Shown: positions 2,455-60,646 of the stretch, piece by piece
How positions within the stretch are numbered: position 1 is the stretch's first letter
Layout of the letters: every line of letters begins with the position of its first letter
NCBI RefSeq assembly: GCF_014280035.1
Contig: NZ_CP047957.1
Location: 124,001 to 188,000, forward strand
DNA: 64,000 bases
Source: Synechococcus sp. A18-25c
GTDB taxonomy: Bacteria; Cyanobacteriota; Cyanobacteriia; PCC-6307; Cyanobiaceae
Direction: 5' to 3'
The notes under the pieces: generated by a model
Databases searched by the model: none
Seen by the model: only the letters and a program-made list of their open reading frames with translations
What the model was told of the DNA's origin: nothing
Made by a program: the position numbers and the translations under genes

Positions 2455-4734
2455 GTGAGTCAAGAAAAAATCATGCTGCAGTTGCAAGTAGCAATTTCGC
2501 GGCACAATCAGGGAGATTTGGATCAGGCAGAAGAAATTTACAAGCAAGTCCTTTCTGATGACGCTGAAAATCCCTATGCATTGAGATTTCTGGGCTGTTT
2601 GCAATCTTCTCGAGGGTGTCATCATTCCGCAATTTCGCTTTTGCGGCAAGCTACAAGAGTCTCTGCGATGGATCCAGAGTGTTGGTTCAGCTTGGGAAAT
2701 GCATATAAATCTGATTACAGGTTTGAAGATGCAGTGGCTTCTTATCGCATGGCCGAAGAGTGTGGATCTTTAAATCCTCATGTTTTTAATAATTGGGGGA
2801 GATGTTTGCAAGAGATGTCTCGGCAGCAAGAGTCGATATCAGTTCTGGAGAAGTCGGTAGCTCTCGATAGTAGTTGTTTTGGGGCATGGTTGGCACTCGG
2901 CAATGGCTGGAGAGAGCTTGGCAATGTATCGCGAGCTATCTTTTGCTACAAGAAGTCAATTATTGCATCTCCTTCCTTTGCCGATGCATATTTAAACCTC
3001 GGTAGTCTTCTTAAAGACGAGGGGGAGTACGAGGCAGCGCTTGACAATTATCGCAAGGCAATCAAGCTAAAGCCGGATTTTGTGCAAGCTTATTTTTGTT
3101 TGGCAAATGCGCTGAATGAGCAGGGAGATATTGAGGCAGCGCTTGACAATTATCACAAGGCAATCGAGCTAAATCCGGATTTTGCGCAAGCTTACTTTTG
3201 TCTGGCAAATGTGCTGACTGAGAATGGGGATTTTGAGGAAGCCCTTGACAGTTATCGGAAAGCAATTGAGATAATGCCTGATTTTGTGCAAGCTTATTTT
3301 AATTTGGCAAATGGGTTGAAAAAGAAGGGAGTTATCGAGGAAGCTCTTGACAGTTATCAGAAAGCAATTGAGCTAAAACCAAATTATGTGCAAGCTTATT
3401 TTAATTTGGCAAACTTATTGATTGATGAGGGAAGAGTTCTGGAAGCTCTTGAAAATTATCAGAAAGTGATTGAGCTAGATCCCAATTTTGCAAGTGCTTA
3501 TCTAAATTTGGGCGCTTTGCTGAAGGAACAGGGAAAACTAGAGGATGCTATATTAAATTATCGGAAGGCGATTGCAGTAAACCCAGATTACGCGGACGCA
3601 TACTTTAACTTAGGTCTTGTATTGAAGGAAGTGGGGGAGTTGGCTGCTGCTGCGGAAGCTTATGCCCAGTATTATCGATTAAAACCAATTGCAAAGAGTC
3701 TATCCCTTCCTTCTCTTGATTCCAAGCAATCTTTCGGCACTTTATTGCAGATAAAGGTGCCTGAAAGCGTTGAGCTTATTCCTTCTTATGTTTCAGCCAC
3801 TATTCCTTTCGGCATGCACTTGATTTATGTGCACATCCCCAAGACCGGGGGTATCCGTTTCTCAAATCCTATCTTTGAGTGTATGCAACGTATGCTTTTT
3901 AGTGGAGGCTGGGAGAATTACCAGGATCTCATTGCCATTGCTAATATACAGAAAAACTTTTCTTTACTGGTCAGTCATCGGATTGATTCCGTCTCGATGC
4001 GAGATGGGATTGTCGCAGCTCTATCTTCTTACGATATTACCTCACTTGACTTTTCATTCTTGACTTCTCATGGCGTCTCTTCTCGTGAGCTTTCCTTGGC
4101 GATGAGGGATCATTTCAATGCGCAGCCTCTTCGCATCGCAACTTGGAGGGATCCTATGAGCCGCCTACGATCAGCTCTGGACTATTGGTATAGGTTGTCT
4201 GAGGGAGATTTGGAACTTGTGAAACAGAAGATTGATCAAAAAGATCCTTTTTTAGACAATGCGATCTATCGTGGCTGTTATAGTGATTTCTCATTTCAGC
4301 TGTCGCCTGATGAGCTGCATGAAGCCCAGATCGACTATCTGATTGATATTGGAGACTTCTCCGTGATGAACCAGATCATGAGCTGTTTCCTCTCTAGATG
4401 TCGTCTTCCTAATATCATTATCAACAAAAGGGTGAATGTCACCCCTTTTAAACAAAAAATAGATTTAGCTCTTTCTGATTCTTTGATTATGCAGTGCGTG
4501 GATTCCGACTTCCTGACACGAGATTCTAGTTCTGGTATTCTCAAGATGGTTTCTAGTGGATTACCAGCAGCGTTCGTTATGGAATTCGATCCACACTTAA
4601 CTTCTTTTCATCCCCTGACTTTTATTGTCAATGGGACAACTGATGTCACGACTTCAATGCACAATTGGTTGCTCCCAACAGAGTATTTAACTACTGACGA
4701 AGGGCAAGTATTTTTGCAGAAAATTTTCTCTTGA
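2455..4734 (+). CDS. TPR-repeat protein with C-terminal sulfotransferase-like domain
   Basis: The protein has about 759 residues. The first ~410 are consecutive 34-residue TPR units (recurring pattern A-Y-FNLAN-L...G...EAL..Y.KAIEL.P). The C-terminal ~300 residues carry HIPKTGG (near residue 460), the 5'-phosphosulfate-binding motif of the Sulfotransfer_2 / heparan-sulfotransferase-like family. TWRDPMSRLRSALDYWYR about 110 residues later resembles the 3'-phosphate-binding motif. A PAPS-dependent sulfotransferase acting on a glycan or protein, with the TPRs as docking scaffold, is the likely role; the substrate is unknown. Start: GTG 2455 makes the N-terminus align with the next TPR gene (both have IM at residues 6-7, then the first TPR); ATG 2428 and ATG 2473 are alternatives. 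AT-rich codon use differs from secA and cysE on either side, suggesting an acquired or fast-evolving block. Confidence 0.75.
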   Translation: MSQEKIMLQLQVAISRHNQGDLDQAEEIYKQVLSDDAENPYALRFLGCLQSSRGCHHSAISLLRQATRVSAMDPECWFSLGNAYKSDYRFEDAVASYRMAEECGSLNPHVFNNWGRCLQEMSRQQESISVLEKSVALDSSCFGAWLALGNGWRELGNVSRAIFCYKKSIIASPSFADAYLNLGSLLKDEGEYEAALDNYRKAIKLKPDFVQAYFCLANALNEQGDIEAALDNYHKAIELNPDFAQAYFCLANVLTENGDFEEALDSYRKAIEIMPDFVQAYFNLANGLKKKGVIEEALDSYQKAIELKPNYVQAYFNLANLLIDEGRVLEALENYQKVIELDPNFASAYLNLGALLKEQGKLEDAILNYRKAIAVNPDYADAYFNLGLVLKEVGELAAAAEAYAQYYRLKPIAKSLSLPSLDSKQSFGTLLQIKVPESVELIPSYVSATIPFGMHLIYVHIPKTGGIRFSNPIFECMQRMLFSGGWENYQDLIAIANIQKNFSLLVSHRIDSVSMRDGIVAALSSYDITSLDFSFLTSHGVSSRELSLAMRDHFNAQPLRIATWRDPMSRLRSALDYWYRLSEGDLELVKQKIDQKDPFLDNAIYRGCYSDFSFQLSPDELHEAQIDYLIDIGDFSVMNQIMSCFLSRCRLPNIIINKRVNVTPFKQKIDLALSDSLIMQCVDSDFLTRDSSSGILKMVSSGLPAAFVMEFDPHLTSFHPLTFIVNGTTDVTTSMHNWLLPTEYLTTDEGQVFLQKIFS
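3031..3438 (+). repeat. Tandem 102-bp coding repeats (four TPR units)
   Basis: Four consecutive 102-base units begin at 3031, 3133, 3235 and 3337, each starting GAGGCAGC or GAGGAAGC and each encoding one 34-residue TPR. The first two are near-identical at DNA level (for example CTTGACAATTATC in both). A more diverged unit follows from 3439. DNA-level similarity, not just protein similarity, points to recent duplication or gene conversion. Confidence 0.8.
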
Positions 4735-4865
4735 TGTGAAAGTTTATTTGATAACGCACGCATTAGATTTCTACTGGGAATCGTAGATACCATTTCCCAA
4801 GGTTGTGGGTGCTCTGCACAAATTAAATTTTTATTGGTCCTGTCTTTGAGGGTCAGGATCCCTAG

Positions 4866-4900
4866 ATGTCAAACATTTGTTGTGAGGTGATATTTGACGT
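4866..4900. promoter_or_regulatory. Imperfect inverted repeat upstream of the second TPR gene
   Basis: ATGTCAAACAT (4866-4876) and ATATTTGACGT (4890-4900) are inverted copies matching at 9 of 11 positions, separated by 13 bases and ending 27 bases before the GTG start at 4928. The arms are operator-like. A transcript hairpin is the other possibility, but no T-run follows. Function is inferred only from symmetry and position. Confidence 0.35.
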
Positions 4901-4927
4901 AAAATTGAAGTAGTAAAGAGGTGCCTT

Positions 4928-7027
4928 GTGAATTATGACAACATTATGAGGCTGCTCCAGCAGGGCATACAGGCATACCAGAGAATGGATCTTGATAATG
5001 CCGAGTGTATTTTTAAACAGATTCTTGCTCAAAATCCGAAGGAGCCGAATGCCCTTCATTTGATTGGCTGTATTTATAAAGACCTTGGACAGTACGAGCT
5101 CGCTGCTCAGATGATCCAGGCATCTATAAGAGAAGACGATAGAAGTCCAATTCCCTTTCTTAATTTAGGTAAAATTCTTGTTATAGTTGGTCAGCATGAG
5201 AATGCTATTAGTATTTTTCAGGAGTCATTGAAGAGAAATCAAGGTAATGCTGAGGCTTGGTTTTGTATTGGTAATTCTCTTAAGCAAATCATGAAATTAG
5301 AGGAATCCAAGCAGTCGTATCGAAATGCATTGCAATTAGATCCTTCTCATGTTGGAGCAGCATCTAACTTGGGGGCGATACTCACCAATGAAGGTGAGTT
5401 CGATCAGGCGGAGCACTTGTTTTTAAAAGCCCTTGAACATACCCCTGGCGATATTATTATTAGGAATAATTATGGAAAATTATTATTTGATAAGGGGCAG
5501 TACGACGCGGCAATTAATCAGTATCAATGTGCTCTTTCGTATGCGCCACAGTATCCTGAGCTCCACTACAACCTTGGTAATGCATGCGTCGAAAATCGAA
5601 ACTTTGGCAAAGCTATCATATGTTATCGAAGGTCGATTGAGCTTAAGCCGGATTTAGCTGATGCGTATTTGAATCTGGGAGTTGTTTTGAATATTGAGGG
5701 ATCTGTTGACGAAGCGATAATAAATTACCGGAAAGTGATTGAGCTTAAGCCGGATTTAGCTGATGCGTATTTGAATCTGGGCGGTGTGTTGAAGGATAAA
5801 GGGTGTGTTGAGGAAGCAATTGCAAATTACCTGAAAGCCATTGAATTGAATCCAGATTTAGCTGATGCGTATTTGAATCTGGGCGCTGTGTTGAAGGATA
5901 AAGGGTGTGTTGAGGAAGCAATTGTAAATTACCGGAAAGCGATTGAAGTAAAGCCAGATTTTGCAGTTGCGAAGCAAGCTTTAATGCTATGTCTTGCTGA
6001 GAATGGTATTCGAGAGAGTGTTTCATTAGAGGACTATCAGGCTTGCAGAGCGTTAGTTGAGCAGGCAGGCATTCTGATCGCTGCTTATGCATCTTTTGAG
6101 CAGATCCCATCAAGCAGGCGGTCGATTAATTCCTGGATTGAGGACAAAAATGCTGGTTATTTCCAAGGACAGATGTTTGCCACTGTTTTTGTCAATTTGC
6201 CTTGGGTGAAGTCAAAACATTTTAAAGAGATAAGCGGTTCGTTGATTCCAGAGCCTGGCGATGGCTACTTAGATGCTGTTGACGCTTGTTTGTCTTCAGT
6301 CCCGACTTTGCAAATTCGGATGTCTCAAGCGCCTGTAATTTCTTCTTTGGTGGAATCTGTCGCTCGAAGGAAAGGAGATCTCATTGACGTAATTGACGTG
6401 GGTGGATGGTCAGGCAATGCTCTGTTTCTTTCGGGATTTAACGATTCTTGGGATGCTGTGAACTCTTGGACCGTAGTGGAAACCCATGCTGTTTGTGCTC
6501 CTGCGCGTGAGCAGTTGCCTCGACTGCTTGAATCTTTGCCAGAAGAGTCGGGAGGAAAAAAAAATCTTGTTAAGCTTTCTTTTGAAGAGCTTAACTCATT
6601 TTATACTGCCTCTAGTGCTTCGCGTAAACCAGATTTAATCTGGTCAAGCACTGCGCAGCATTATAATGCTAACTTTCCTTGTGATTTGGATGCTTTGCTT
6701 TCATTTGGGGCGGATTTAGTTTATCTCGATACACTTCCTTATTTGTCAAGTTCCTGCTCAGCTTTGAACGTTTGTGAATTTACCGAATTAAGGGTTGCTG
6801 ACCAGATGGTATCTTTTCTAATGAGTTTAAAATACTTGAAAGAATTGATTGCAGAAGCAGCTTTGAAACACGGTTACTCTTTTAAAGTTTGGGATCAGCA
6901 TATTGAGCCAAAATTAGTTTTTTGGCAGCCGCAGGAAAACGATAGTTCACTGCCCAACATTGTGCAAAAAGATGCTAAGCCCTTGCTGATGAAAGTTTGT
7001 TCCATTCGTTTTGATAAGTTGGACTGA
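4928..7027 (+). CDS. TPR-repeat protein with C-terminal methyltransferase-like domain
   Basis: The protein has 699 residues. Residues 1 to about 350 are TPR units, several near-identical in DNA. The C-terminal part contains IDVIDVGGWSG at about residue 485, a glycine-rich SAM-binding loop, followed by WTVVETHAVCAPAREQLP. This layout recalls the TIGR04325 family of putative methyltransferases often found in sugar and surface-polysaccharide loci. The GTG start follows AGAGG with about 6 bases spacing and sits 193 bases after the upstream TPR-sulfotransferase gene on the same strand. The two proteins share the same architecture (TPR scaffold plus small-molecule transferase), so they may modify a common surface glycan or glycoprotein. 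The methyltransferase call is by motif only; the substrate is unknown. Codon use is AT-rich. Confidence 0.7.
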   Translation: MNYDNIMRLLQQGIQAYQRMDLDNAECIFKQILAQNPKEPNALHLIGCIYKDLGQYELAAQMIQASIREDDRSPIPFLNLGKILVIVGQHENAISIFQESLKRNQGNAEAWFCIGNSLKQIMKLEESKQSYRNALQLDPSHVGAASNLGAILTNEGEFDQAEHLFLKALEHTPGDIIIRNNYGKLLFDKGQYDAAINQYQCALSYAPQYPELHYNLGNACVENRNFGKAIICYRRSIELKPDLADAYLNLGVVLNIEGSVDEAIINYRKVIELKPDLADAYLNLGGVLKDKGCVEEAIANYLKAIELNPDLADAYLNLGAVLKDKGCVEEAIVNYRKAIEVKPDFAVAKQALMLCLAENGIRESVSLEDYQACRALVEQAGILIAAYASFEQIPSSRRSINSWIEDKNAGYFQGQMFATVFVNLPWVKSKHFKEISGSLIPEPGDGYLDAVDACLSSVPTLQIRMSQAPVISSLVESVARRKGDLIDVIDVGGWSGNALFLSGFNDSWDAVNSWTVVETHAVCAPAREQLPRLLESLPEESGGKKNLVKLSFEELNSFYTASSASRKPDLIWSSTAQHYNANFPCDLDALLSFGADLVYLDTLPYLSSSCSALNVCEFTELRVADQMVSFLMSLKYLKELIAEAALKHGYSFKVWDQHIEPKLVFWQPQENDSSLPNIVQKDAKPLLMKVCSIRFDKLD
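5648..5953 (+). repeat. Tandem 102-bp coding repeats (three TPR units)
   Basis: Units begin at 5648, 5750 and 5852, each opening CCGGATTTAGCTGATGCG or CCAGATTTAGCTGATGCG. The second and third are almost identical across about 70 bases (differences such as GGCGGT versus GGCGCT). A fourth copy at 5954 diverges quickly. This indicates very recent expansion of the TPR array and likely copy-number variation between strains. Confidence 0.8.
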
Positions 7028-24696: not shown

Positions 24697-25559
24697 CCTC
24701 CGCCCTACTGCTGTTCAAGACCCTCTGGGGTTGGACGGATTCCCTGGATCAGGCCTGTGAATGCTCCCAGCGGGGCGGGTTTGACGGGTTGGAAGTCAAT
24801 TTGGATCATCCCTGCCTGGAGGCTTTGCCAGCCGCTGCGATCCGGAGTCGGTTGGATCGGTCGCAGCAGCACTTGATTCTTGAGATCGTTACTGGTGGTG
24901 ATTACACCCCGTCGCTGCAGTGGAGCCCTGCTGATCACCTGGCGCAGTTGGACCAAGATCTGCAGCGAGCCGCAGGCCTCGAACCCCTGAAGATCAACCT
25001 GATCACCGGCAGCGACAGTTGGTCGGATGACGTTCAGGACGATTTTCTGGACGCCCTGCTCGATCGACTCGATGCAGTGCCGGTGGCGGTGATGCTGGAA
25101 ACCCACCGCAGCAGGAGCCTGTTTGACCCTTGGCGTCTGCCAACCCAGCTGCAGCGGTTCCCGCGGCTGCGTCTAACGGCTGACCTCAGCCACTGGTGCA
25201 CGGTGAGCGAACGTCTGATGACCCCCGAGCTTTCGCCGGTGCAGGCGATGGCCCCTCGGGTTGATCACATCCATGCTCGGGTCGGTCATGCCCAAGGCCC
25301 CTCTGTTAGTCATCCCTTCGCACCGGAATGGGCTGAGGCCTTGGAAGCCCATCGCCGCTGTTGGCAATTGTTTCTGGATCAATCCGCCCGGCTGGATCAA
25401 CCCTTCACGATCACGCCGGAGTTTGGGCCTGATGGCTACATGCCGCAACTTCCCTTCAGCGCGAAGCCGTTGGCTGATGTTCAGGCTCTTAATGCTGAGA
25501 TGGCCTCTTGGCTGCGGTCCAGCTTGAGCATGCCCGCTTCCGATAGCTGTTCGCTGTAG
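24693..25559 (+). CDS. Sugar phosphate isomerase/epimerase-like TIM-barrel protein
   Basis: 288 residues of the xylose-isomerase-like (AP endonuclease 2) superfamily. Metal ligands are plausible at Glu in GGFDGLEVN and LETHRS, Asp/His in TADLSHWCTV and His in HIHARVGHAQG. PLKINLITGSDSW resembles strand 3 of hydroxypyruvate-isomerase-like members. Soluble; reaction unknown. The TTG start overlaps the small upstream gene (TTGA). Its last 79 bases overlap the convergent Rieske gene, an unusually long antisense coding overlap. Confidence 0.8.
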   Translation: MTSALLLFKTLWGWTDSLDQACECSQRGGFDGLEVNLDHPCLEALPAAAIRSRLDRSQQHLILEIVTGGDYTPSLQWSPADHLAQLDQDLQRAAGLEPLKINLITGSDSWSDDVQDDFLDALLDRLDAVPVAVMLETHRSRSLFDPWRLPTQLQRFPRLRLTADLSHWCTVSERLMTPELSPVQAMAPRVDHIHARVGHAQGPSVSHPFAPEWAEALEAHRRCWQLFLDQSARLDQPFTITPEFGPDGYMPQLPFSAKPLADVQALNAEMASWLRSSLSMPASDSCSL

Positions 25560-26566
25560 AGGCTTTGCCAATGCAGGATGCGCTGTTCGAGTTGATGAGC
25601 GGGTCCTGGCTGGAAGTTCTCGTCGTACCCCCGTTGAGCAGCCTCCACGAGGGCTTTGTCCTCGTCTAAAAAAATCAGCAATTGCTCCAACCAGGCTTCA
25701 GCCTCCACGGTGTTGACGGCCCCAGTCGGTGCGAGGAGCTGAAGCTGCATCGTGCATTGCAGAGGCTGCTCCGGCAGAAACTCCAGCAGGGCGATCCGTC
25801 CGTCAGGCCAGATCAGCACATGGGTCCAGGGCGGCAGGCCAAAGGTCTGAAACGGTCCCCCATCCGGGTGTGGCGTTTCGAGCAGGTTGACGTAGCGACT
25901 GAAGTGATGGACGTAATCGCGAACTGGTCCCTGTTCGCGGTGCAGGGTCGTTGGATGGGCAATCGCGACGTGGTAGTCGTCGAGTGTGTTGTCGTGGGCG
26001 ATCTTCCAATTGCAATTCAGGCTGCGTCGCGTCCGCCCGCAGGCTTCCACGGCTCGGCTCCAAGCGGCTGCGGCCGTGGTTTGGATCAGAGCCAGTTGCT
26101 GCTCCAGCGGGATCGGTTCTTCAGCGAGGGCGACCCAGATGAAGGGTCCTTGGATCCGACATGACAGTTCGCTCAACCCCCAGGCCTGGCGATCAAACCC
26201 GGTCTCAAACCCCGACTCTCTGGCCGCCGATTGCAGAGTGCCATCCAGGTTGTAGGTCCACCCGTGATACGGGCAGATCAGTCGTCGGCATGACCGAGCG
26301 GTTTCTCGATCCGCTTGAAAGGCGACTCCGCGATGGGGGCAGCGATTACGAAAAGCCCGGGGTTTGCCGTTGTCCGGCCAGGTGAGCAGCAGAGGTTGAT
26401 GCAGCAGCGTGATGGCCAGGGTCTGCCCGGGACGGAGAGCGGTGGCTGCTGCAACTGGATGCCAGAAGCGGTTGGCATAGACACGGCAATCCCACTGATG
26501 CATCGCTTCGTGGCGATACATCCATCCCGGCAGAAACGGCTGATTCAGCCTCGGGCTCTTCAACAC
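25481..26566 (-). CDS. Rieske non-heme iron oxygenase, alpha-subunit type
   Basis: 361 residues. Rieske [2Fe-2S] ligands CPHRG and CPYHGW (about residues 75-100) match CxH-x(15-17)-CxxH. The catalytic domain has NWKIAHDNTLDDYHVAIAHP, containing the bridging Asp and the two iron-binding His of ring-hydroxylating oxygenases, with a distal Asp/Glu further on. No reductase or ferredoxin gene is adjacent, so electrons would come from general ferredoxin. The start overlaps the ABC ATPase stop by seven bases and it is the last gene of the guanidine operon. Role inferred: oxidation of an N-substituted guanidine or related nitrogen compound brought in by the transporter; the actual substrate is unknown. 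Confidence 0.88.
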   Translation of the reverse strand: MLKSPRLNQPFLPGWMYRHEAMHQWDCRVYANRFWHPVAAATALRPGQTLAITLLHQPLLLTWPDNGKPRAFRNRCPHRGVAFQADRETARSCRRLICPYHGWTYNLDGTLQSAARESGFETGFDRQAWGLSELSCRIQGPFIWVALAEEPIPLEQQLALIQTTAAAAWSRAVEACGRTRRSLNCNWKIAHDNTLDDYHVAIAHPTTLHREQGPVRDYVHHFSRYVNLLETPHPDGGPFQTFGLPPWTHVLIWPDGRIALLEFLPEQPLQCTMQLQLLAPTGAVNTVEAEAWLEQLLIFLDEDKALVEAAQRGYDENFQPGPAHQLEQRILHWQSLYSEQLSEAGMLKLDRSQEAISALRA

Positions 26567-27315
26567 AGTGAAGGCTCCAGCTCACGCATGGTTCCCGATA
26601 GGGATTGCCGTAGGGCCAGAAAGTCGCTGCTCACGCGGAGCTGATCGAGATCACTTTTGTTTAAGTCAACATCGATGGATCGGATGATCCGCCCCGGGTT
26701 GGGGGCCAGCACGTGGACGCGCTGGGCAAGCACCAAAGCCTCCTCCACGTCATGGGTAATCAGCAGAACTGTGAGGCCTGTTCGTTGCCAAAGCTTGAGC
26801 AGGAAGTCCTGCATCGATTCCCGGATCTGGAGATCCAGAGCGCCAAAGGGTTCATCCAGCAGCAGGACGCTGGGGTTGGTGGCGAGGGCGCGAGCGATGG
26901 CCACCCGCTGCTGCATGCCGCCCGATAGTTCGCGCGGCAATTTGGTCGCGGCGTCACTGAGCCCGACGACTTCCAGGAAATAGGCGGTACGCGCCTTGAT
27001 CTCTGCTGCTTTCATCCGTTGAAGACGCATGCCGAAGGCGACGTTGTCAGCAGCGTTCAGCCAGGGAAAGAGGCTGTACTTCTGAAACACCATGCCCCTG
27101 TCTGGCCCAGGGCCAGAAACGGGGGTGCCGTCGACAGCGATGCTGCCGCTGCTCGGTTGATCCAGGCCAGCTATCAGCCGCAGAATGGTGCTTTTTCCGG
27201 ATCCAGAGCTGCCGACTAGGGCCATGAAGTCTCCGGATTGCATGGAAAACGACAAGTGATCGAGGATTAATTTTTCCCCGAAACGTTTGCTGAGGTTGTT
27301 CACAATCAGCTCCAT
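26560..27315 (-). CDS. ABC transporter ATP-binding protein (SsuB/TauB/NrtD-like)
   Basis: 251 residues. Walker A GSSGSGKST, signature LSGGMQQRVAIARAL, Walker B LLLDEPFGALD and switch His in LLITHDVEEAL are all intact. Belongs to the nitrate/sulfonate/taurine ATPase family. It follows the permease gene by three bases and overlaps the Rieske gene. In the Synechocystis gdmH region a similar transporter accompanies the enzyme, so guanidine or a guanidine derivative is the likely cargo. Confidence 0.93.
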   Translation of the reverse strand: MELIVNNLSKRFGEKLILDHLSFSMQSGDFMALVGSSGSGKSTILRLIAGLDQPSSGSIAVDGTPVSGPGPDRGMVFQKYSLFPWLNAADNVAFGMRLQRMKAAEIKARTAYFLEVVGLSDAATKLPRELSGGMQQRVAIARALATNPSVLLLDEPFGALDLQIRESMQDFLLKLWQRTGLTVLLITHDVEEALVLAQRVHVLAPNPGRIIRSIDVDLNKSDLDQLRVSSDFLALRQSLSGTMRELEPSLC

Positions 27316-27318
27316 GGT

Positions 27319-28146
27319 TCATACCGCCCATTTGCAGCTGAGGCGAAGCAGGAGCCGGAATCCCATGTCGATGGCGAAGCCGATCAAGCCCAGCACGATC
27401 AACTCGGCGAAGATCTGATCGGTGCGGAAAAAGCGCTGAGCCAGCTGGATGCGTTTTCCAAGGCCCACTTCCGCGGCCACCAGCTCCGCCACCACCACGA
27501 GGTTCCAGGAGGTGGCGATGTTGATTCGCAAGGTGTCGATGATGCTGGGCAGGCTGTAGCGGGCGACGACTTGCACCAGCACCTGCCGGCTGCGACCACC
27601 CAGGGTGAGTGTGGTTTCAATGAGTTCTTTGGGAACGAACTTCACCGCATCCATCACCATCAGGATGTTGAAGTAGATCGTGCCGAGAAAAATCAGAGCG
27701 ATCTTGGGTTCCTCCCCGATGCCGAGGTAGATGATCAGTAGAGGGATGAAGGCCGCTGCAGGCATGTAACGCAGCATGGCGATCAGCGGCTCGCAGATGG
27801 CGCAGATCGCCGGGTAGACCCCCATGCAGATGCCAATCGGCACCGCCAGAAGTGTGGCGAGAAGAAATCCTGCGAACACACGGCCGGTGCTCGCCACAAT
27901 GTCTTGAAAAAGAATTCCGCTCTCCGCCATGGAGGCCAGGGAGCGGAACACGGCCTGCGGCGAGGGCAGGAATTTTTCATCCACCAAGCTGAGGGAGGCG
28001 ATGGTGGTCCACAGCAGGAGTGGCACCAGCAGTGATGCCACCTGCAGACCGCCCCGCACGGCCTTGGATGGCATGGCACCCAGGGTGAACAGGGAGAGAA
28101 GTCCAGTGCTTCTCTCCTTGTTGGCAGCGGCGGCCGTCGCAGTCAT
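27319..28146 (-). CDS. ABC transporter permease (SsuC/TauC-like)
   Basis: 275 residues, about six membrane segments, with the EAA-type loop region LVQVVARYSLPSIIDTLRIN typical of nitrate/sulfonate/taurine permeases. TGATG links it to the binding-protein stop (one-base overlap). It forms the membrane channel of the putative guanidine importer with the ATPase downstream and the lipoprotein upstream. Confidence 0.92.
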   Translation of the reverse strand: MTATAAAANKERSTGLLSLFTLGAMPSKAVRGGLQVASLLVPLLLWTTIASLSLVDEKFLPSPQAVFRSLASMAESGILFQDIVASTGRVFAGFLLATLLAVPIGICMGVYPAICAICEPLIAMLRYMPAAAFIPLLIIYLGIGEEPKIALIFLGTIYFNILMVMDAVKFVPKELIETTLTLGGRSRQVLVQVVARYSLPSIIDTLRINIATSWNLVVVAELVAAEVGLGKRIQLAQRFFRTDQIFAELIVLGLIGFAIDMGFRLLLRLSCKWAV

Positions 28147-29147
28147 CAGGAGGCGGCGACCTTCTTGATGAAGCTGTCATCAAACAGCGAACTCATGTCG
28201 GGTTTCTCGGGAATGAAGCCCACCGAGACCATGAAGTCAGCCATCGACTCCGCTGCGTAGGGCATGAACTTCATGCCCTCACCATCGCTGAACGCTTGGA
28301 GGTTCTCCTCGATGGAGAAGAAGCGGGTGCCGTCTTTGTACTGCTCGTATTCTTCGGTCGGAATGCCGGCACGCTTGGCCATGATGGCCTCAGACTTTTC
28401 GGGGTTCTTCTCCATGAACTCGCGAACGTCCCACCAGGTCTTCACAATCTTCTGCACATCGTCGGGACGCTCCTTGATCAGATCAGCGCTGACGGTGAGC
28501 AGATCAGGGATTGCTCCGGGGTACTCCTTCGAGCTGGCAATCACCTGAGCACCTTCACGCTGCATGGCGGTGCCGGTGTAGGGAGGGAAGGCGCCAACGG
28601 CATCCACCTGACCAGCCGCGAAGGCTGTGGCTGCCTGATCGGTGGGCATGCCTTTAATCACCACGTCATCGCGGCTCAGGCCCGCATCTTGGAGGGCCAG
28701 GCTGAGCAGGTAGTCGTCCACGACGCCTTCCTCGACAGCCACGGTCTTGCCTTTGAGATCGGCGATGGAGGAGATGGATGCGTCAGCAATGATCTGGTCA
28801 TTGCCGGCCGAGTTGTCGTTCACCAAAACCACCACTTCACCGCCGTTCTCGCCCGGCAGGAAGGAAATGGTGTCGTTCAGGGTTTGGGAGTTGCCGTCGA
28901 TTTTGCCGGCGGCGAAGGTTTCCATCGACTGCACATAACCGTCGAACCACTTCATCTCCACATTCACGCCGTTCTTTTCAAACAGCTTTTCTTCCACGGC
29001 GATGGCCCAGGGCCACCATCCGGCCCAGTTGCTGTAGCCCAAAACGATCGGTGGGCCCTCCACTACTGGGGTGGAGGGCTTGGAGCAGGCGACGGCCAGC
29101 ACGATGGCGAGGCCGGCGAACAGAAGGTTGCGCAGTTGTTTGGTCAT
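28146..29147 (-). CDS. ABC transporter substrate-binding lipoprotein (SsuA/NMT1-like)
   Basis: 333 residues. The N-terminal signal ends in a lipobox around LAVACSK, so the mature protein is lipid-anchored in the periplasm. The fold motif GYSNWAGWWPWAIAVEEK and the hinge KGKTVAVEEGVVDDYLLSLA are typical of the nitrate/taurine/thiamine-precursor binding family. Aromatic residues in the pocket region (WAGWWPW) would suit a planar cation such as guanidinium, but that is inference. It lies 38 bases after hypB. Confidence 0.9.
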   Translation of the reverse strand: MTKQLRNLLFAGLAIVLAVACSKPSTPVVEGPPIVLGYSNWAGWWPWAIAVEEKLFEKNGVNVEMKWFDGYVQSMETFAAGKIDGNSQTLNDTISFLPGENGGEVVVLVNDNSAGNDQIIADASISSIADLKGKTVAVEEGVVDDYLLSLALQDAGLSRDDVVIKGMPTDQAATAFAAGQVDAVGAFPPYTGTAMQREGAQVIASSKEYPGAIPDLLTVSADLIKERPDDVQKIVKTWWDVREFMEKNPEKSEAIMAKRAGIPTEEYEQYKDGTRFFSIEENLQAFSDGEGMKFMPYAAESMADFMVSVGFIPEKPDMSSLFDDSFIKKVAAS

Positions 29148-29185
29148 GGCATGGGCGGGAGGGAGGAGATGTTGGATTGATCTGC

Positions 29186-29890
29186 TCAGGCGGTGGCCAG
29201 AGCAGGGGCTGTGGTGGTCCGGCTGGCGAGGGCTTGCCGCACCCAGATGTGCCAGGCATCGAGGCCCTCGCCTGTCAGGGCGGAGACCTCGATCACCGTG
29301 GCGTTGGGGTTGATGCTGTGGATGTTGCGGCGGATCACCGCCACATCTATTGGCAGGTGGGGTAGGAGATCCACCTTGGTGATCAGCACCACATCTGCGT
29401 TGCGGAACATCAGGGGGTATTTGAGCGGCTTGTCGTCGCCCTCGGTGACGCTGAGCAACGCCACTTTCTGATGTTCCCCGACGTCAAATTCCGCTGGGCA
29501 GACGAGGTTGCCCACGTTCTCCACAAGCAAGAGATCAAGCGCGGAAGGGTCGAGTCGCTGTCGCAGCAACGTCAGGCCACCACTCACCATGGCCGCATCA
29601 AGGTGGCAGGCTCTGCCGGTGGTGATGGGCACGACCGGAATGCCAACGGCTTCCAACCGGTCGGCATCCAGTTGGGTGGTCATGTCGCCCTCCAGCACGG
29701 CCATGCTCAGCTCGCGAGCCAAGACGGGGAGGGACCGTTCGAGCAAGGCGGTTTTGCCTGCGCCTGGGCTGCTCATCAGGTTGAGGCACAGCAGATCCCA
29801 GCTCTGGAAGTGCGCGTTGTTGTGCTCGGCTTGATGGGTGTTGGCTGCAAGCAGATTACGGCTGAGGTTGTCCTCGAGAGGCATATGCAT
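29186..29890 (-). CDS. hypB: Nickel-insertion GTPase HypB
   Basis: About 235 residues. [12 protein letters not shown] is the P-loop, and [30 protein letters not shown] (metal-site Cys in switch II) and [13 protein letters not shown] (NKxD-like) are all HypB/UreG-type features. No N-terminal CxxCGC motif or histidine-rich stretch is seen. ATG 29890 begins at MHMPLEDNL, 22 bases past the hypA stop; the open frame to 30016 overlaps hypA. No hydrogenase gene is present in the window, so this copy most likely serves the neighbouring nickel enzyme GdmH, as reported for the Synechocystis homologue. Confidence 0.92.
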
Positions 29891-29912
29891 GGCAAAAGGG
29901 GAGGTATTGGTT

Positions 29913-30311
29913 TCAGCGCTGACGCTGGATTGGAATGGACTCAAGGGCAGCGGCGGCATCGCTGCGGTAATCAATGCTGCGGATGCGTAATTCCCTGCCG
30001 CTGACGATCTCTTCAAGTGGGTGATCGCAGCAGGGAGAGCGGTAGGCGTTTTCGGGCACGGGGTCGTAGGTGCCGTTGCAGGTCAAGCAGCGGCCCACAA
30101 AGGGGATCTCCGTGATCGTGAGCCGGGATCCATCCAGCCAGGTGCCCTGCACCGCAGCCTTGTAGGTGGTCACCAGCTGATCGGGTTCAACGCAGGTGAA
30201 TCGCCCCACATCGAGATGAACGGTCTCGACCATTGCAGAGGTGTCTTCGCGACGGTCGCGCCATTCATTCAGGGAGATCAGCAGGCATTTGGTCATGTCA
30301 ACTTCATGCAT
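29913..30311 (-). CDS. hypA: Nickel metallochaperone HypA
   Basis: 132 residues. The N-terminus [10 protein letters not shown] keeps His2, the nickel ligand. The zinc site is CLTC followed by a PCCDHP element about 20 residues on, compatible with the CxxC...CxxC-type HypA zinc finger though slightly altered. It lies three bases after the guanidine hydrolase stop. It is expected to hand Ni2+ with HypB to GdmH. Confidence 0.92.
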
Positions 30312-30314
30312 GGT

Positions 30315-31505
30315 TTATCTCCACTTCTGATCAACGGTCATGTTGCAGCTGTCGCTGATCCACTCCGGCTTCTCTTTGCGGGGCAACTGACCGCTCACCA
30401 CGAGGTGGGCCATGGTGTCGCAGATCACCCGGGTGGCCATCAACGAGGTCATGTCACTGATGTCGTAAGGCGGTGACACCTCAACGATCTCTAAACCGCA
30501 AACGGGAACGTTGCGCACGATCAGTTCCAGCAGCTTGAGCGCCTCACGGGGCATCAGGCCGCCGGGCTCCGGCCAGCCAGTTCCCGGTACGAAGCCGGCA
30601 TCGATGCAGTCAATGTCGAAGGAGATGTAAACGCAGTCCGTGCCATCGGTGGCTCGTTCAATGGCGTATTGGGCGGCGGCCTCCAGCCCCATTTCGGTGA
30701 TGTCGGTCACCGTGAGCACATTGGTGCCCCGTTCTCGGCAGATCTTGACGCCTTCCCGAGGCACTTGCCAGCCACCGATGCCCAGCTGCACCAGGTTTTC
30801 AGCCGGAGCGTTGGCCATGTTGGTGGCATGGAACCACGGGCAGGTGTGCATCCGCTCGTCCAGATCGATCTCCTGGGTGTCGACATGGCGATCGAAATGG
30901 ATGATTCCCACCTTTTTGTCGCCGAGATGGCGACAGACCCCGCGCACCGTGGGAAAACCGATTGAGTGGTCGCCACCGAGAATGATCGGGAAGGCACCGC
31001 TTGAGAACACGTGGGCGATGCCTTTGGAGATCTGATCGAAGCTCTTTTCGTTGTTGGCGGGGATCGTGAAGATGTCACCCACATCGCAGAGGGTGATTTG
31101 TTCGCGGAGGTCCACCCCCATCTCGTAGTTGTAAGGGGTGTAAAGCGCTGAAATGCGTCGGATGCCCTGAGGCCCAAAGCGTGTTCCGGGCCGGTAGGTG
31201 GTGCCGCAGTCGTGGGGAACGCCAACGATGGCGACGTCGTAGTTGCCCACGTGATTGACGTCTTCCAGGTAGGGAGCCTTCATAAAGGTGTTGATGCCGG
31301 CGAAATGCGGCAATTCACCCCGGGAGAAGGTGGAGATGTTGCGGTCGACGATGCTGGCCGCCGCCTCAAGGCCGAAGCGCTTGGCTTGATCGACTTCTTG
31401 TTGCCAACCGGTGAGGGGAAGTTTGCGTTCTTTTTCCAGCGCATCCATGCCTTCGCTGGGGTGCGAACGCTGGAATGCCCCTGAGGAATCAGTCGTCGAT
31501 GCCAT
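30315..31505 (-). CDS. gdmH: Ureohydrolase, probable Ni2+-dependent guanidine hydrolase
   Basis: 396 residues of the arginase/agmatinase superfamily. Metal ligands: GGDHSIGFP, HFDRHVDTQ (DxHxD) and ISFDIDCIDAGF (DxD). An N-terminal extension of about 80 residues precedes the fold (DVAIVGVPHDCGTTYRPG), giving the length of Synechocystis Sll1077, shown to hydrolyse guanidine to urea and ammonia with nickel. Older databases would call it agmatinase. Three independent context signs favour GdmH: a guanidine-I riboswitch in the leader, hypA and hypB directly downstream, and an SsuABC-like importer after them. The DRHVD variant (Arg rather than Ala in DAHxD) also separates it from agmatinases. First gene of the operon. 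The urea product would feed urease, which is not in this window. Confidence 0.9.
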   Translation of the reverse strand: MASTTDSSGAFQRSHPSEGMDALEKERKLPLTGWQQEVDQAKRFGLEAAASIVDRNISTFSRGELPHFAGINTFMKAPYLEDVNHVGNYDVAIVGVPHDCGTTYRPGTRFGPQGIRRISALYTPYNYEMGVDLREQITLCDVGDIFTIPANNEKSFDQISKGIAHVFSSGAFPIILGGDHSIGFPTVRGVCRHLGDKKVGIIHFDRHVDTQEIDLDERMHTCPWFHATNMANAPAENLVQLGIGGWQVPREGVKICRERGTNVLTVTDITEMGLEAAAQYAIERATDGTDCVYISFDIDCIDAGFVPGTGWPEPGGLMPREALKLLELIVRNVPVCGLEIVEVSPPYDISDMTSLMATRVICDTMAHLVVSGQLPRKEKPEWISDSCNMTVDQKWR

Positions 31506-31530
31506 AAAACGAGGGAGTGGGCTTGGGGGC

Positions 31531-31620
31531 GGTCTCCCGGGCTTTTATCCCTCCGTGCGCCGGCGAGCCGGCTGAAACCTCTTGGACCAGTCGTCCCGAA
31601 GGACCGGAACCCTAGATCTC
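31531..31620 (-). promoter_or_regulatory. Guanidine-I riboswitch (ykkC class)
   Basis: Read on the minus strand: CTAGGGTTCCGG from 31615, then GACTGGTCCAAGAGG, GCGCACGGAGGGATAAAAG and CCCGGGAGACC ending at 31531. These match the conserved blocks of the guanidine-I aptamer in order and spacing. It ends 25 bases before the gdmH ATG. A possible expression platform: GAGGGA within the aptamer (31553-31548) can pair with TCCCTC (31516-31511), which is followed by GTTTT and the ATG. That would form either a short terminator or a start-blocking stem when guanidine is absent. Confidence 0.93.
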
Positions 31621-31660
31621 TTCCGCGGGCTCACTCTCCGATTCCGCCTGGTGCACCGGT

Positions 31661-33717: not shown

Positions 33718-35313
33718 TCATGCCAACAACAGTTGGTCGATCCACTGTCGCCAGCTCAGTCCTTCTGGATGATTGGCATAAACAAGATTGGTTTCTGCGC
33801 TGGTCAAGTTGGTCTGGCCCAAGCTGCGCAGCAGCCGATCGAGCTCGTTCGGCTCAAGATGATCATCGCCATTGGCATCCATGGGGATCAGGTAAAGCCG
33901 CAGCCGGTCTTCGCCGTCCCGTAACCGTTGCAGGTGCTGGATGAAGTGGCCGAATTCCATCCGGTTGATTTGACCATCTCGGTTGAGATCCATCGCTGCC
34001 AGGACCGTGTTCAGTTGATCGTCCAGCAATGGATCGTTGTTTTCGGCCTGCCTTTGAATGAGGTTGCTCATGAGGGCATGGCGTAGTTCAGCAATGCTGA
34101 GACGTCCATCCTGGTCGCGATCAAGTTCGGCAAACAGCTCTTGGGTTTGGTGATTGAGTGGTTCTTCCAACACCGGTGGAGCGCTGATGGTTGGGATGCC
34201 GGCCAGTCGTTCTTGCAGGTGACGACGGAACCTCTCCAGGAGCACACGGGTGACGCCATAGCGCTGGCGATGTTCTTCAGGGCTGACCACAGCGTGTAAG
34301 CAGATAGGAATCAGGGCCGGCAGCCTGCGCTTCGCGAGGCGTTGCAGGCACCAGGTCGTGATCACGAAGCTCAGGGTGAGTGGCGGCAGGATTCCGATCA
34401 TGCGGATCTGCAGCACCTGAAGCAGTGTGGCCAGGCTGGCTCCGAGCATGGCCAGCAGAATGCTTCTGCTGCTGGGAGTGTGGAAAATGCCGCCGAGGGC
34501 TATGGCGGTCAGCACGCTGTTGTATCCCCAGAGGCCTTGGGCGACGGCGCTGGCGTCAGCACCTTGGATCAGGCTGCTCGTCATGCCGATGATCGCGCCG
34601 ATGACACCCAACCCAGCCGCTATGGGGCTGGCGATGACAACAGCGATGGCCACCAGGCACCCACTGGTGAGACTTGAGCAAAGAAACACCTGCCCAAAAC
34701 TGTGCGGGATTCCGAGCAGCAGCGTTTCAAGCGGTGTCGTCGCGGCAGCGGGCTGAATGGCTTCGAGTGGTGTGGTGAGCGAAGGAGGAACGACAGCGAG
34801 CAGAACCCAGGTGATCAAACAAAACGGAAGGGTGAGCACCGGCGGATCGCCTCGACGGTGAAAACGCAGCCGCCAGAGTTCAATCATCCAGGTGGTCAAT
34901 CCACCACCGATCGCCACCAGCAGCGTCAGTTGTGCCGCGTTTGCGGCTGATGGCATTGGGGTGTTCGCCAATGCTGCGGTGGCGCATCCCACCAACACAC
35001 CGTTGAAGCCATGAATGCCCTGGTTACGCAACTCCGGGGACAACCGCATCCAATGGGAGACGCCATTGGCTGCAGTCATCCCCACTAAAGCCCATCCCGC
35101 CATCCAGGGCGAGCTGAGCCAGAACGCCAGCAGCAGCAAAGCGCCGCTGAGGGGATGGTTGATGAAAATCACCTGGGACACACTGCGCAGCCCGCGCGCC
35201 CAAGGACCCTCGAGGGCCCGTGCTCGATTCAGCCAACCCGTTGGTTCGATCGGTTTCGGCGCAGGCAACAGGGTCTGCAGCCTCTCGTAAACCGATGGGG
35301 ACTCAGCCTGCAT
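33718..35313 (-). CDS. Urea transporter (UT family) fused to a C-terminal four-EF-hand domain
   Basis: 531 residues. The N-terminal ~350 are hydrophobic with the internal repeat of UT urea channels: GIHGFNGVLVGCATAAL and, later, GLWGYNSVLTAIAL, plus VIFINHPLSGALLLLAF near the start. After a basic linker come EF-hand loops DRDQDGRLSIAE (398-409), DLNRDGQINRME (442-453) and DANGDDHLEPNE (479-490), then a degenerate fourth (around 514-525). Bacterial UT proteins are normally about 330 residues without such a tail. Passive urea passage gated or sensed by Ca2+ is the inference. The start overlaps the arginase stop by 11 bases, so the two are one operon. It could export urea made by the arginase or import external urea. 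Confidence 0.9.
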   Translation of the reverse strand: MQAESPSVYERLQTLLPAPKPIEPTGWLNRARALEGPWARGLRSVSQVIFINHPLSGALLLLAFWLSSPWMAGWALVGMTAANGVSHWMRLSPELRNQGIHGFNGVLVGCATAALANTPMPSAANAAQLTLLVAIGGGLTTWMIELWRLRFHRRGDPPVLTLPFCLITWVLLAVVPPSLTTPLEAIQPAAATTPLETLLLGIPHSFGQVFLCSSLTSGCLVAIAVVIASPIAAGLGVIGAIIGMTSSLIQGADASAVAQGLWGYNSVLTAIALGGIFHTPSSRSILLAMLGASLATLLQVLQIRMIGILPPLTLSFVITTWCLQRLAKRRLPALIPICLHAVVSPEEHRQRYGVTRVLLERFRRHLQERLAGIPTISAPPVLEEPLNHQTQELFAELDRDQDGRLSIAELRHALMSNLIQRQAENNDPLLDDQLNTVLAAMDLNRDGQINRMEFGHFIQHLQRLRDGEDRLRLYLIPMDANGDDHLEPNELDRLLRSLGQTNLTSAETNLVYANHPEGLSWRQWIDQLLLA

Positions 35314-36811
35314 GCGTTGCTGAGGTGGGCGTGAAGCGTTCCGCGAGCACTTCCATGCCGGCCCGATAGAGGCTTAGAGACATTTCGGCCAGGGTGTTAA
35401 GCACATCCAGATGGGGATTGATCTCACAGATTTCCCAGCAACACACCCGTGGGTCCTTCAGCAGGGTTTTGATCAGCAGCATCACCTCATGGGCCCAGAG
35501 CCCATTAGGAACCGGAGTTCCGGTTCCTTTGCAAATGGTGGAGTCCAGTGAATCCACATCCAGGCTCACGTAGATCAGGTCCACATCGGAGAGATGCGTC
35601 AGGCATTGTTTGGCGGCCTGTGTGGCGCCATTCCTCCGCACCTCTGCGGTGGTGATCACCGGGATTTCATGCTGGGCCAACGTGATGTCTTCAGCAGCTT
35701 CCGTGTCTCGAACGCCGACATAAATCAGATCACGCAGGGAGATGGCTGGTGATGTAGAGCCATGCAGTTGCTTGAGGCTGTTCCAGAGCGATCGTGTTGT
35801 CGCGTCGGGATCATTGATGGCTTCTGGCAGGTTGTCGTGCTGCGCAGCAATGGCCAGCGGCATCCCGTGCATGTTTCCAGAGGGTGTAGTGAAGGGCGAA
35901 TGAATGTCGGCATGCGCATCGATCCAGATCACCCCCAGTCGTTGCTCAGGGTGTGCCCGTCGAATTCCCGCGATGGTGGAGGCAGCCGTTGAATGGTCTC
36001 CGGCCAACACCAGTGGGAAGCTCCCCTGGTCCAGGGTTGTGGCCACAAGGTCGGCCGCTTCCTGCATCACCTTGGTGATCTTTTCGATATGACGGGCGTG
36101 GGGTGTGGTGGTCGTTGCAGCGTTGTCATCTGCGCGGGCCCTGGGAGAGCGATCGTCGTGAATCTCTTTGATTAAGCCGTCGCTGAGTTGGCTCAAATCG
36201 TGTTGCCGCTGGACCGCGTTTTTGAGAAGTTCAATGCCTGAGCCTGCTCCAGGGATGCCTGCGCCGAGGTCACAGTCCACCTCCACCAAGGTCACGCCGT
36301 CCAGACGTGCCGCACTCTGAACCTGAACCAAATTCTTTTTCAGGCGTTTGAGATCGGCCAAGGAACACGGCAGTTCCAGGGTCTTGTCCAGAAGGTCAAG
36401 AAACTCATTGGCGCTGATCTGAGCATCACCATTGCGATCCAGTTGTGTCGTCAGTGTTTGCGCGTCGTGAGGGGACTTGGCTGAATACAGCATGCGCATC
36501 ATGCGGTCGAGCTCTTCTCGACTGAGCCAACCGTTGTGGTCGGCATCCACCAGATCAAACAGGTCCCGCAGCAGTTGATGCCGTCCAAGCTTGGGCTGCT
36601 GTTGCGCCCACCGCAAAAAATCATCACGACGGATGATTTTTTGCTCGTGCAGCAACTGTCTGAGGGCATCCGCTTCTTCGGGGGCAATCACCGCTGCCAT
36701 GGATGTCAGCACTTGCTCGACCTCTTGTGCTGTGATCGACCCATCACCGTTGACCTCAAACTGTGCAAAGAGCGAGGACAGCTCGTTCATCAGCAGAGGC
36801 GTGGTTGTCAT
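35303..36811 (-). CDS. Arginase-family ureohydrolase with N-terminal four-EF-hand domain
   Basis: 502 residues. Residues 1-150 form a calmodulin-like module: loops EVNGDGSITAQE (19-30, Glu at position 1), a degenerate second near 55-66, DADHNGWLSREE (89-100, canonical) and DRNGDAQISANE (125-136, Ala for Gly at position 6). From about residue 170 the arginase fold follows: VEVDCDLGAGIPG, GDHSTAAS (~270), WIDAHADIHSP (~297) and VSLDVDSLDSTICKGTGTP (~422) supply the Mn2+ ligands. GTGTPVPNGL is arginase-like rather than agmatinase-like. Likely reaction: arginine to ornithine plus urea, with calcium control inferred from the fusion. It shares an operon with the EF-hand urea channel. No signal peptide, so cytosolic. 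Confidence 0.88.
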   Translation of the reverse strand: MTTTPLLMNELSSLFAQFEVNGDGSITAQEVEQVLTSMAAVIAPEEADALRQLLHEQKIIRRDDFLRWAQQQPKLGRHQLLRDLFDLVDADHNGWLSREELDRMMRMLYSAKSPHDAQTLTTQLDRNGDAQISANEFLDLLDKTLELPCSLADLKRLKKNLVQVQSAARLDGVTLVEVDCDLGAGIPGAGSGIELLKNAVQRQHDLSQLSDGLIKEIHDDRSPRARADDNAATTTTPHARHIEKITKVMQEAADLVATTLDQGSFPLVLAGDHSTAASTIAGIRRAHPEQRLGVIWIDAHADIHSPFTTPSGNMHGMPLAIAAQHDNLPEAINDPDATTRSLWNSLKQLHGSTSPAISLRDLIYVGVRDTEAAEDITLAQHEIPVITTAEVRRNGATQAAKQCLTHLSDVDLIYVSLDVDSLDSTICKGTGTPVPNGLWAHEVMLLIKTLLKDPRVCCWEICEINPHLDVLNTLAEMSLSLYRAGMEVLAERFTPTSATHAG

Positions 36812-37019
36812 GGCTGGACGGCAGGTGATGGGGGCTGTGAGGAGGTCGAGTTGCGTTGGTTGATGACATTCCGAAGAAAAGTCGTTCCTCTATGGCGTGT
36901 TTTGAGTGGCGTTGCTACTGGGCATTCTTGTCACTATTTCAGCTCTTGCGACACGGTCTCATTGTTTTACTAGCATGAGAATCAGGCGCTTCATTGTCAT
37001 GCAATTCAAGGGAAGCCTG

Positions 37020-37241
37020 ATGGCTTTGCAGGTCCTTGTTGAGCGACTGGGTGTCCCCTGTCATTGGCAGCATCGCGGCCCATTTGAAATGGCGGTGTTT
37101 GACGACGGCGTTAGTAATTTGAAGCTCAATTGGTGGCCTGAGACCGGTGAATTGAGGCTTGTGGGAGATCCCGAGGTGCGTGATGAGTTGGCCAAGCGCC
37201 TTGAAGCATTGTTGGCAGAGCATGCTTCAAGCGCGTCTTGA
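37020..37241 (+). CDS. Small conserved-looking protein, 73 residues
   Basis: ATG 37020 has AGGGAAG about five bases upstream; in-frame ATGs at 36975 and 36999 are alternatives. The sequence MALQVLVERLGVPCHWQH ... LKLNWWPETGELRLVGD, then an amphipathic helix, suggests a compact alpha/beta protein. I do not recognise a family. It is divergent from the EF-hand arginase, with about 208 bases between the two starts. Confidence 0.6.
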   Translation: MALQVLVERLGVPCHWQHRGPFEMAVFDDGVSNLKLNWWPETGELRLVGDPEVRDELAKRLEALLAEHASSAS

Positions 37242-59055: not shown

Positions 59056-59090
59056 CCCCTCCACTTTCGGAACGCTTGCTACGGTTCAAA

Positions 59091-59185
59091 CACCACTAGG
59101 GGTGCCTGAGGTCGTTCGCGGCCGGAAGGGCTGAGATCACACCCTCTGAACCTGATCCGGGTCATGCCGGCGCCAGGGAAGTGAC
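59091..59185 (+). promoter_or_regulatory. TPP riboswitch (THI element) of thiC
   Basis: Conserved blocks ACTAGGGGTGCC (from 59095), GGGCTGAGATCACACCC (from 59128) and TGAACCTGATCCGGGTCATG (from 59147), then CGCCAGGGAAGTG, appear in the standard order. It ends about 58 bases before the thiC ATG. It should repress thiC when thiamine pyrophosphate is plentiful. Confidence 0.95.
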
Positions 59186-59194
59186 CACATGTGA

Positions 59195-60646
<1,452 letters not shown>

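Follow-up and report, generated by a model that had tools for sequence, protein, structure and literature searches.

A conserved gene pair joining EF-hand modules to an arginase-family enzyme and a UT urea channel in Synechococcus, and its possible control by calcium

We analysed a 64,000-nucleotide stretch of Synechococcus sp. A18-25c (contig NZ_CP047957.1, positions 124,001 to 188,000; hereafter the window), in which one gene of an overlapping pair codes for an arginase-family enzyme that carries an EF-hand module at its N-terminus, and the other for a UT-family urea channel that carries one at its C-terminus. The pairing of the two, pointed out in a sequence-only reading of the window, is borne out as an architecture and, by co-occurrence and linkage in other genomes, as a conserved genetic unit; both are well supported. 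We lean, by a modest measure, towards the view that the two genes are translationally coupled and serve a urea metabolism under calcium control, their products being a Ca2+-switched ureohydrolase and a Ca2+-gated urea channel. The observations under this reading are the architecture, the linkage, the conservation of ligand positions and the presence of a urease alpha gene.

Architecture and conservation of the two proteins

Both are minus-strand genes that share 11 nucleotides, and their coordinates, overlap and Pfam domains agree with the earlier description of an arginase with an EF-hand module at its N-terminus beside a UT channel with one at its C-terminus. The features of the pair are as follows.

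35303..36811, minus strand: EF-hand arginase gene, 502 amino acids; Pfam PF00491 with PF13499, PF13405 and PF00036
36722..36757, minus strand: arginase EF1 loop EVNGDGSITAQE, residues 19-30; Glu at position 1; scored weak
36512..36547, minus strand: arginase EF3 loop DADHNGWLSREE, residues 89-100
36404..36439, minus strand: arginase EF4 loop DRNGDAQISANE, residues 125-136; Ala at position 6
36308..36361, minus strand: arginase basic linker helix, residues 151-168, from EF module to catalytic domain; helical in the AlphaFold2 model; aligned in EF-bearing members
35393..36292, minus strand: arginase catalytic domain, residues 174-473; metal ligands present
33718..35313, minus strand: EF-hand UT urea channel gene, 531 amino acids; its start overlaps the arginase end by 11 nucleotides; PF03253 with EF-hand families
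34345..35190, minus strand: UT channel domain, residues 42-323
34201..34281, minus strand: channel basic linker helix, residues 345-371, from channel to EF module; helical in the AlphaFold2 model
34087..34122, minus strand: channel EF1 loop DRDQDGRLSIAE, residues 398-409
33955..33990, minus strand: channel EF2 loop DLNRDGQINRME, residues 442-453
33844..33879, minus strand: channel EF3 loop DANGDDHLEPNE, residues 479-490; Asp at position 6

The arginase domain matched Pfam at E 2.7e-48 (165.3 bits against a PF00491 cut-off of 22) and the UT domain at E 6.2e-64 (216.4 bits against a PF03253 cut-off of 25), while the channel stays below the cut-off of the Yut equivalog TIGR03441 (153.9 against 274.6 bits). 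EF-hand-pair matches cover residues 10-69 and 81-140 of the arginase protein (best E 1.5e-16), and EF-hand matches in the channel protein begin at residues 391-457 and continue beyond (best E 1.3e-15). Sequence matches in the PDB follow the same division: bacterial and animal arginases, with calmodulin and centrin for the N-terminal part, in the first protein; UT-A, UT-B and one bacterial UT, with SCaMC and calmodulins for the C-terminal part, in the second. AlphaFold2 models reached a mean pLDDT of 75.9 for the arginase (24-sequence alignment) and 77.9 for the channel (16-sequence alignment). In Foldseek searches the former groups with arginases and the latter has the UT fold, matching UT-A, UT-B and the D. 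vulgaris UT at E 4e-12 to 4e-15. Urea conduction is predicted for the channel. The termini of UT proteins are cytosolic, and positive charges at channel residues 148-154 and 328-330 fit a cytosolic C-terminus, so the EF-hand module attached there is most likely cytosolic as well.

Conservation was assessed in two alignments. The arginase alignment holds 24 sequences, including 11 EF-less Bacteroidetes-type sequences cut at their tblastn match (their upstream parts were checked separately) and the EF-less L108; it leaves out L022 (stop codon), L062, the frameshifted gene of G075, the broken L012 and the EF-less L011, where G- and L-numbers denote genomes and loci. Of the 17 channel genes matched over their full length, the channel alignment holds 16, leaving out L142, the channel of G545. 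Each module contains three canonical-type loops and one degenerate hand (EF2 in the arginase, EF4 in the channel), in a scan that was lenient at loop position 6. Judged by PF13499, that is, by paired helix-loop-helix units with ligands at loop positions 1, 3, 5 and 12, three of four hands qualify in each. The earlier claim that several loops are canonical holds, whereas that of four-EF-hand modules holds in part: the helices leave room for four hands, and only three fit the loop pattern.

The three loops are kept in all 16 aligned channels and all 12 aligned full-length EF-arginases, with 2 of 48 channel loops and 1 of 36 in-register arginase loops (EF1 of the window) scored weak. At ligand positions 1, 3, 5 and 12 the majority residue has a mean frequency of 0.828 in the channel against 0.599 in the rest of the module (permutation 0.00125), and 0.882 against 0.530 in the arginase (0 of 20000 permutations). 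Module dN/dS is about 0.10-0.38 in 7 of 8 pair comparisons; dS is saturated in one channel comparison. Since the loops are retained in homologues down to 29% protein identity, the ligand columns are more conserved than their surroundings and dN/dS is around 0.1-0.4, the EF hands are not a chance resemblance. At E 0.001 the EF-hand-pair model finds three proteins in this genome, two of them being this pair and the third a 159-amino-acid reading frame at 1.23 Mb. A profile comparison aligned the two modules with 98% probability over 65 columns at 26% identity, which is ordinary for two EF-hand pairs, and we do not claim a common origin.

In both proteins the module is joined to its effector domain by a basic helix. 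The best 18-residue linker window has a net charge between +2 and +6 in each of 12 arginases and between +1 and +4 in each of 16 channels; hydrophobic moments range from 0.32 to 0.54. These values are descriptive, each coming from the best window picked per protein with no control windows. P345, E346, E347, H348 and R351 of the channel linker are invariant in 16 of 16 channels, and the first part of this linker is also the ordinary C-terminal end of UT proteins. For the arginase we also examined the best 80 of 571 loci from named genomes, the sample meant wherever such loci are mentioned below. The linker pattern occurs upstream of the catalytic domain in the three EF-bearing loci (L008, L009, L010) and in none of the 77 others, and in 76 loci fewer than 60 residues are possible ahead of that domain. 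Linker helices of this kind resemble calmodulin targets and the junction of calcium-dependent protein kinases (CDPKs), and they only suggest that the modules may be Ca2+ sensors, and hence switches, rather than buffers.

The active site was mapped by alignment to the Thermus enzyme, in human numbering, with loops after excerpts of PMC9224512. The equivalents of the six human metal ligands (H101, D124, H126, D128, D232, D234) and of H141, T246 and E277 are kept in 24 of 24 aligned sequences, as are N139 and E186; S137 is kept in 22 and is Thr in two. The SGNxHGMP loop is present, and loop A has arginase length, being ungapped against the Thermus enzyme. L-arginine appears the likeliest substrate because arginase is the best-scoring family and loop A is of arginase length. 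The score is under the cut-off of the arginase equivalog TIGR01229 (199.5 against 227.6 bits), and at two arginine-contact positions all 24 sequences depart from human arginase, N130 being His and D183 Glu, which weighs against arginine. The label of arginase given in the sequence-only reading is accordingly right as to the nearest family and less secure as to function. With the 12 EF-less sequences sharing both replacements, the whole clade may bind its substrate somewhat differently.

These replacements also underlie the possibility, which we hold tentatively and which is otherwise compatible with calcium control, that the enzyme hydrolyses a guanidino compound other than free L-arginine. 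The score below the equivalog cut-off points the same way, and excerpts of PMC9224512 describe the loops that bear the N130 and D183 positions as influencing arginase specificity. It has to be set against arginase being the best family and fold, and against the retention of the metal ligands, of the His141, T246 and Glu277 equivalents, of N139 and of the length of loop A. A peptide arginase of the OspR type was set aside because the protein scores best with conventional arginases, to which such enzymes have little similarity according to excerpts of PMC10028609.

Distribution and linkage across genomes

The channel query matched in 8 of 31 genomes of the genus and 8 of 291 of the phylum; in family f7 it was full-length in 3 of 145 genomes, with one more in pieces. 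The arginase query matched in 7 of 31 genus genomes, 7 of 151 family genomes, 2 of 145 genomes of f7 (one with the EF module) and 25 of 291 phylum genomes. Six of these 25 match from the EF module onward, one (G005) is strong but lacks the module, and the remaining 18, 17 of them outside the class, match in the catalytic domain only (from residue 166). The sequence-only reading had suggested looking for the same pair elsewhere, and it recurs: all seven genus genomes with an arginase match are among the eight with the channel (G151 having fragments only and G075 a frameshifted gene), compared with none of the 23 channel-less ones. The Fisher value of 3e-6 is indicative, the genomes being related.

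The UT family exceeded its Pfam cut-off in 10 of 291 cyanobacterial genomes. Because eight of these ten genes carry EF hands, the EF-hand tail is the usual state of the cyanobacterial UT channel, itself rare, in the genomes sampled. The other two UT genes (in G300 and G235) have an M23 peptidase domain after the UT domain; at L153 310-2448 and L154 301-2466, they adjoin what by eye appears to be an ornithine/diaminopimelate-type decarboxylase.

The expectation that ordinary relatives lack such domains was confirmed. Upstream EF loops are in frame at only three of the named-genome arginase loci, from Cyanobium, Symploca and a metagenome-assembled genome (MAG) of doubtful name, and a Moorena locus has them in a broken gene. 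Cyanobium sp. T1B-Tous is the nearest named match. The arginase-like matches on 453 plasmid records all fall short of 80% query coverage, and all eight plasmid UT matches end by residue 352, none reaching the EF module. Plasmid-borne copies covering both domains were therefore not found in these records.

The arginase gene lies directly upstream of the channel gene, in the same direction, in 12 of the 16 channel loci examined (the window, L008, L009, L103, L104, L105, L106, L107, L108, L110, L112 and L114). L109 has an arginase remnant, and the stretches of L111, L115 and L116 contain no arginase. EF-arginases also occur with no channel nearby, in L010 (Symploca MAG), L012 (Moorena MAG, the broken gene) and G362. 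Over 11 loci, arginase and channel distances correlate (r 0.857, 0 of 5000 permutations), as shared descent alone would also make them do. The gene mutY adjoins the intact pair in the window and in L114. Partial EF-channel genes, at L113 8543-9133 and L117 8779-9042, lie some 5-8 kb from mutY in G154 and G075, which both have an intact channel elsewhere in the genome. The G154 piece is open over 236 codons, with its linker and three EF loops retained, and may be either a remnant or a free EF-hand protein. At L104 7955-9459 the arginase frameshift falls between EF2 and EF3 and could be a sequencing error, a pseudogene or a split gene.

A small open reading frame, divergent from the arginase gene, is associated with the pair.

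36999..37241, plus strand: small divergent open reading frame, 80 amino acids from this ATG, start uncertain; no Pfam match

It occurs in 7 of 8 channel-bearing genus genomes against 2 of 23 others. Nine of the 12 pair loci have it next to the arginase, one of them (G101) with an internal stop in the matched region; tblastn also matched it at L103, L105, L106 and L117, the L103 reading being truncated.

Proposed calcium control and competing explanations

According to the mechanism we propose, the first protein would be a cytosolic ureohydrolase, most likely an arginase converting L-arginine to ornithine and urea, with a calmodulin-like N-terminal EF-hand module tied to it through the conserved basic helix; the C-terminal module of the channel would hang on the second conserved basic helix. 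Upon a rise in cytosolic Ca2+, each of the two modules would bind Ca2+ and either free or capture its linker helix, and enzyme activity and channel opening would shift together. Urea from arginine or from outside could then be split by the cell's urease. A Ca2+-activated arginase would yield ornithine and, via urea, ammonia, and the channel gate would determine whether the cell keeps its urea or lets urea in. The sequence does not predict the direction of either switch. Cytosolic Ca2+ is reported to rise in cyanobacteria on light-dark and osmotic shifts. Excerpts of PMC7065334 describe Ca2+ as signalling nitrogen deprivation early on in cyanobacteria, among them unicellular species, and call the mechanisms of Ca2+ signalling in these organisms "virtually unknown" though Ca2+ signals have been recorded.

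Ca2+ binding by both modules is something we infer, as we infer the switch directions, arginine as substrate, translational coupling and the setting of nitrogen starvation. Several observations weigh against this mechanism. EF1 of the window's arginase has Glu in place of the Asp found at position 1 in the other 11 of 12 aligned sequences. Identity to the window is 26-73% for arginase EF modules against 51-83% for the catalytic domain, and this faster divergence means that part of the module may be structural. The AlphaFold2 models are only moderate and are silent on Ca2+ state and domain contacts. The pair is also broken in various ways: an EF-less arginase accompanies an EF-bearing channel at L108 (G005), the arginase is frameshifted inside its EF module at L104 (G075) and reduced to fragments in G151, no arginase match was found in G163, which has an EF-channel, the EF-channel of G298 has no neighbouring arginase, and in G362 the two genes are on different contigs. 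As the cases of G005, G151, G163 and G298 indicate, the two modules are not strictly dependent on each other.

A tentative possibility, beyond separate control of the two proteins, is a Ca2+-switched metabolon, in which one Ca2+ transient would turn on the urea-producing enzyme and gate a docked urea channel at once, so that cyanobacteria would possess a fast, non-transcriptional calcium control of nitrogen recycling; the product of the small divergent gene could be a further partner.

We consider it unlikely that the EF hands are constitutive structural or buffering elements, permanently occupied by Ca2+ (or Mg2+/Mn2+) for stability and without a switch. The degenerate hand in each module, the off-consensus EF1 and EF4 of the window's arginase and the faster evolution of its EF part all speak for such elements. 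In both modules, however, the ligand columns exceed the remaining positions in conservation, which a structural site would require as well, and the basic linker helix accompanies the arginase module, its pattern being absent upstream of the 77 loci mentioned above. In addition, two unrelated neighbouring proteins carry the module in a genome with one other EF-hand-pair protein.

Rather improbable, too, is an arrangement in which the EF domains hold the arginase on the channel, by EF-EF or EF-helix contacts, and urea is handed to the pore, with Ca2+ acting structurally or on assembly and not on catalysis. Adjacent, overlapping genes with matching domains are consistent with docking, as are the correlated divergence of the two proteins and the basic helix in each, a possible target of the partner's EF module. 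But the match between the modules (26% identity, 65 columns) is ordinary EF-hand similarity, and the channel keeps its module where the arginase is not found (G163), fragmentary (G151), elsewhere (G362) or EF-less (G005). Retention of the EF tail where the enzyme has been lost favours separate sensors over enzyme-channel docking.

Known systems resemble the pair in part. RocF/ARG1 arginases (PF00491, TIGR01229) share the fold, the binuclear metal ligands and the SGNxHGMP loop; the present enzyme differs in its added N-terminal EF-hand module and basic linker helix, in having His at the N130 position and Glu at the D183 position, and in falling below the TIGR01229 cut-off. UT/SLC14 channels (PF03253; the D. 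vulgaris UT, mammalian UT-A and UT-B) share the channel domain and fold, whereas the C-terminal EF-hand module sets the present channel apart, also from the two other cyanobacterial UTs over cut-off with their M23 domains. In CDPKs a helix links a module of four hands to an effector domain. Among the fold matches of the channel model, CDPK1 ranks first after the UT proteins, as a weak match (E 4e-4, rmsd about 17; CDPK4 at 1.7e-3); the effector here is a channel or a ureohydrolase, not a kinase, and the likeness is one of working, not of membership. The EF-hand Ca2+ sensor CSE (Asr1131) is likewise tied to cyanobacterial nitrogen status, but is described in excerpts of PMC7065334 as a small, unfused protein that has two putative hands and is almost confined to filamentous species. 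The operon of the guanidine hydrolase GdmH/Sll1077 (excerpts of PMC8390497) also contains a urea-yielding ureohydrolase, and one such operon lies next door in the window, but it is riboswitch-controlled, includes HypA/HypB and lacks EF hands and a UT channel.

Among the matches listed from open full-text literature, which largely excludes subscription papers and preprints, none described an arginase or a UT channel with EF hands, or the two as a pair. To our knowledge, this would be the first UT-family urea channel to be gated by Ca2+. The combination suggests that Ca2+ signals may directly control nitrogen recycling in these cells. With a conserved putative sensor on both the enzyme and the channel of a single pathway, Ca2+ signalling becomes testable with two purifiable proteins, and the pair could supply a gene for arginase-type urea release in some cyanobacteria.

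Genome context and neighbouring genes

The genome is a single contig of 2,511,360 bases. Cyanophycin breakdown, proposed earlier as one role of the pair, is unlikely here, and the proposal is not supported for this genome, where no cyanophycin synthetase exceeds the family cut-off (best match 95.6 against 850 bits). Nitrogen overflow was another suggestion; with a urease alpha gene in this genome, internal recycling is at least as likely. As to NtcA control, the exact sequence GTAN8TAC, which we take to be the NtcA motif, is absent from the window, where weaker sites may occur.

A guanidine operon at 25481-31626 on the minus strand comprises a guanidine-I riboswitch, a GdmH-like ureohydrolase, HypA, HypB, an SsuA-like binding protein, a permease, an ATPase and a Rieske-type ring-hydroxylating oxygenase.

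31532-31626, minus strand: guanidine-I riboswitch, heading the guanidine operon; start about 2 kb from the channel gene

The riboswitch-controlled set of GdmH, HypA, HypB and ABC transporter is that described for guanidinase operons in excerpts of PMC8390497, and we would guess that the added oxygenase at the operon's end acts on a substituted guanidine. That the pair serves this operon by exporting guanidine-derived urea is very improbable despite the roughly 2 kb between them: an opposite-strand mutY intervenes, no guanidine riboswitch was found before the pair, and in 20 related stretches (up to about 21 kb each) all listed GdmH matches fall on the arginase gene itself, so that the link is not conserved in the loci tested and the operon is a neighbour, not part of the pair. 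Elsewhere in the window, two long TPR-repeat proteins are encoded at 2428-7027 on the plus strand in a stretch of low G+C (about 0.41 against about 0.6), perhaps a recent island, and a TPP riboswitch lies at 59088-59196 on the plus strand.

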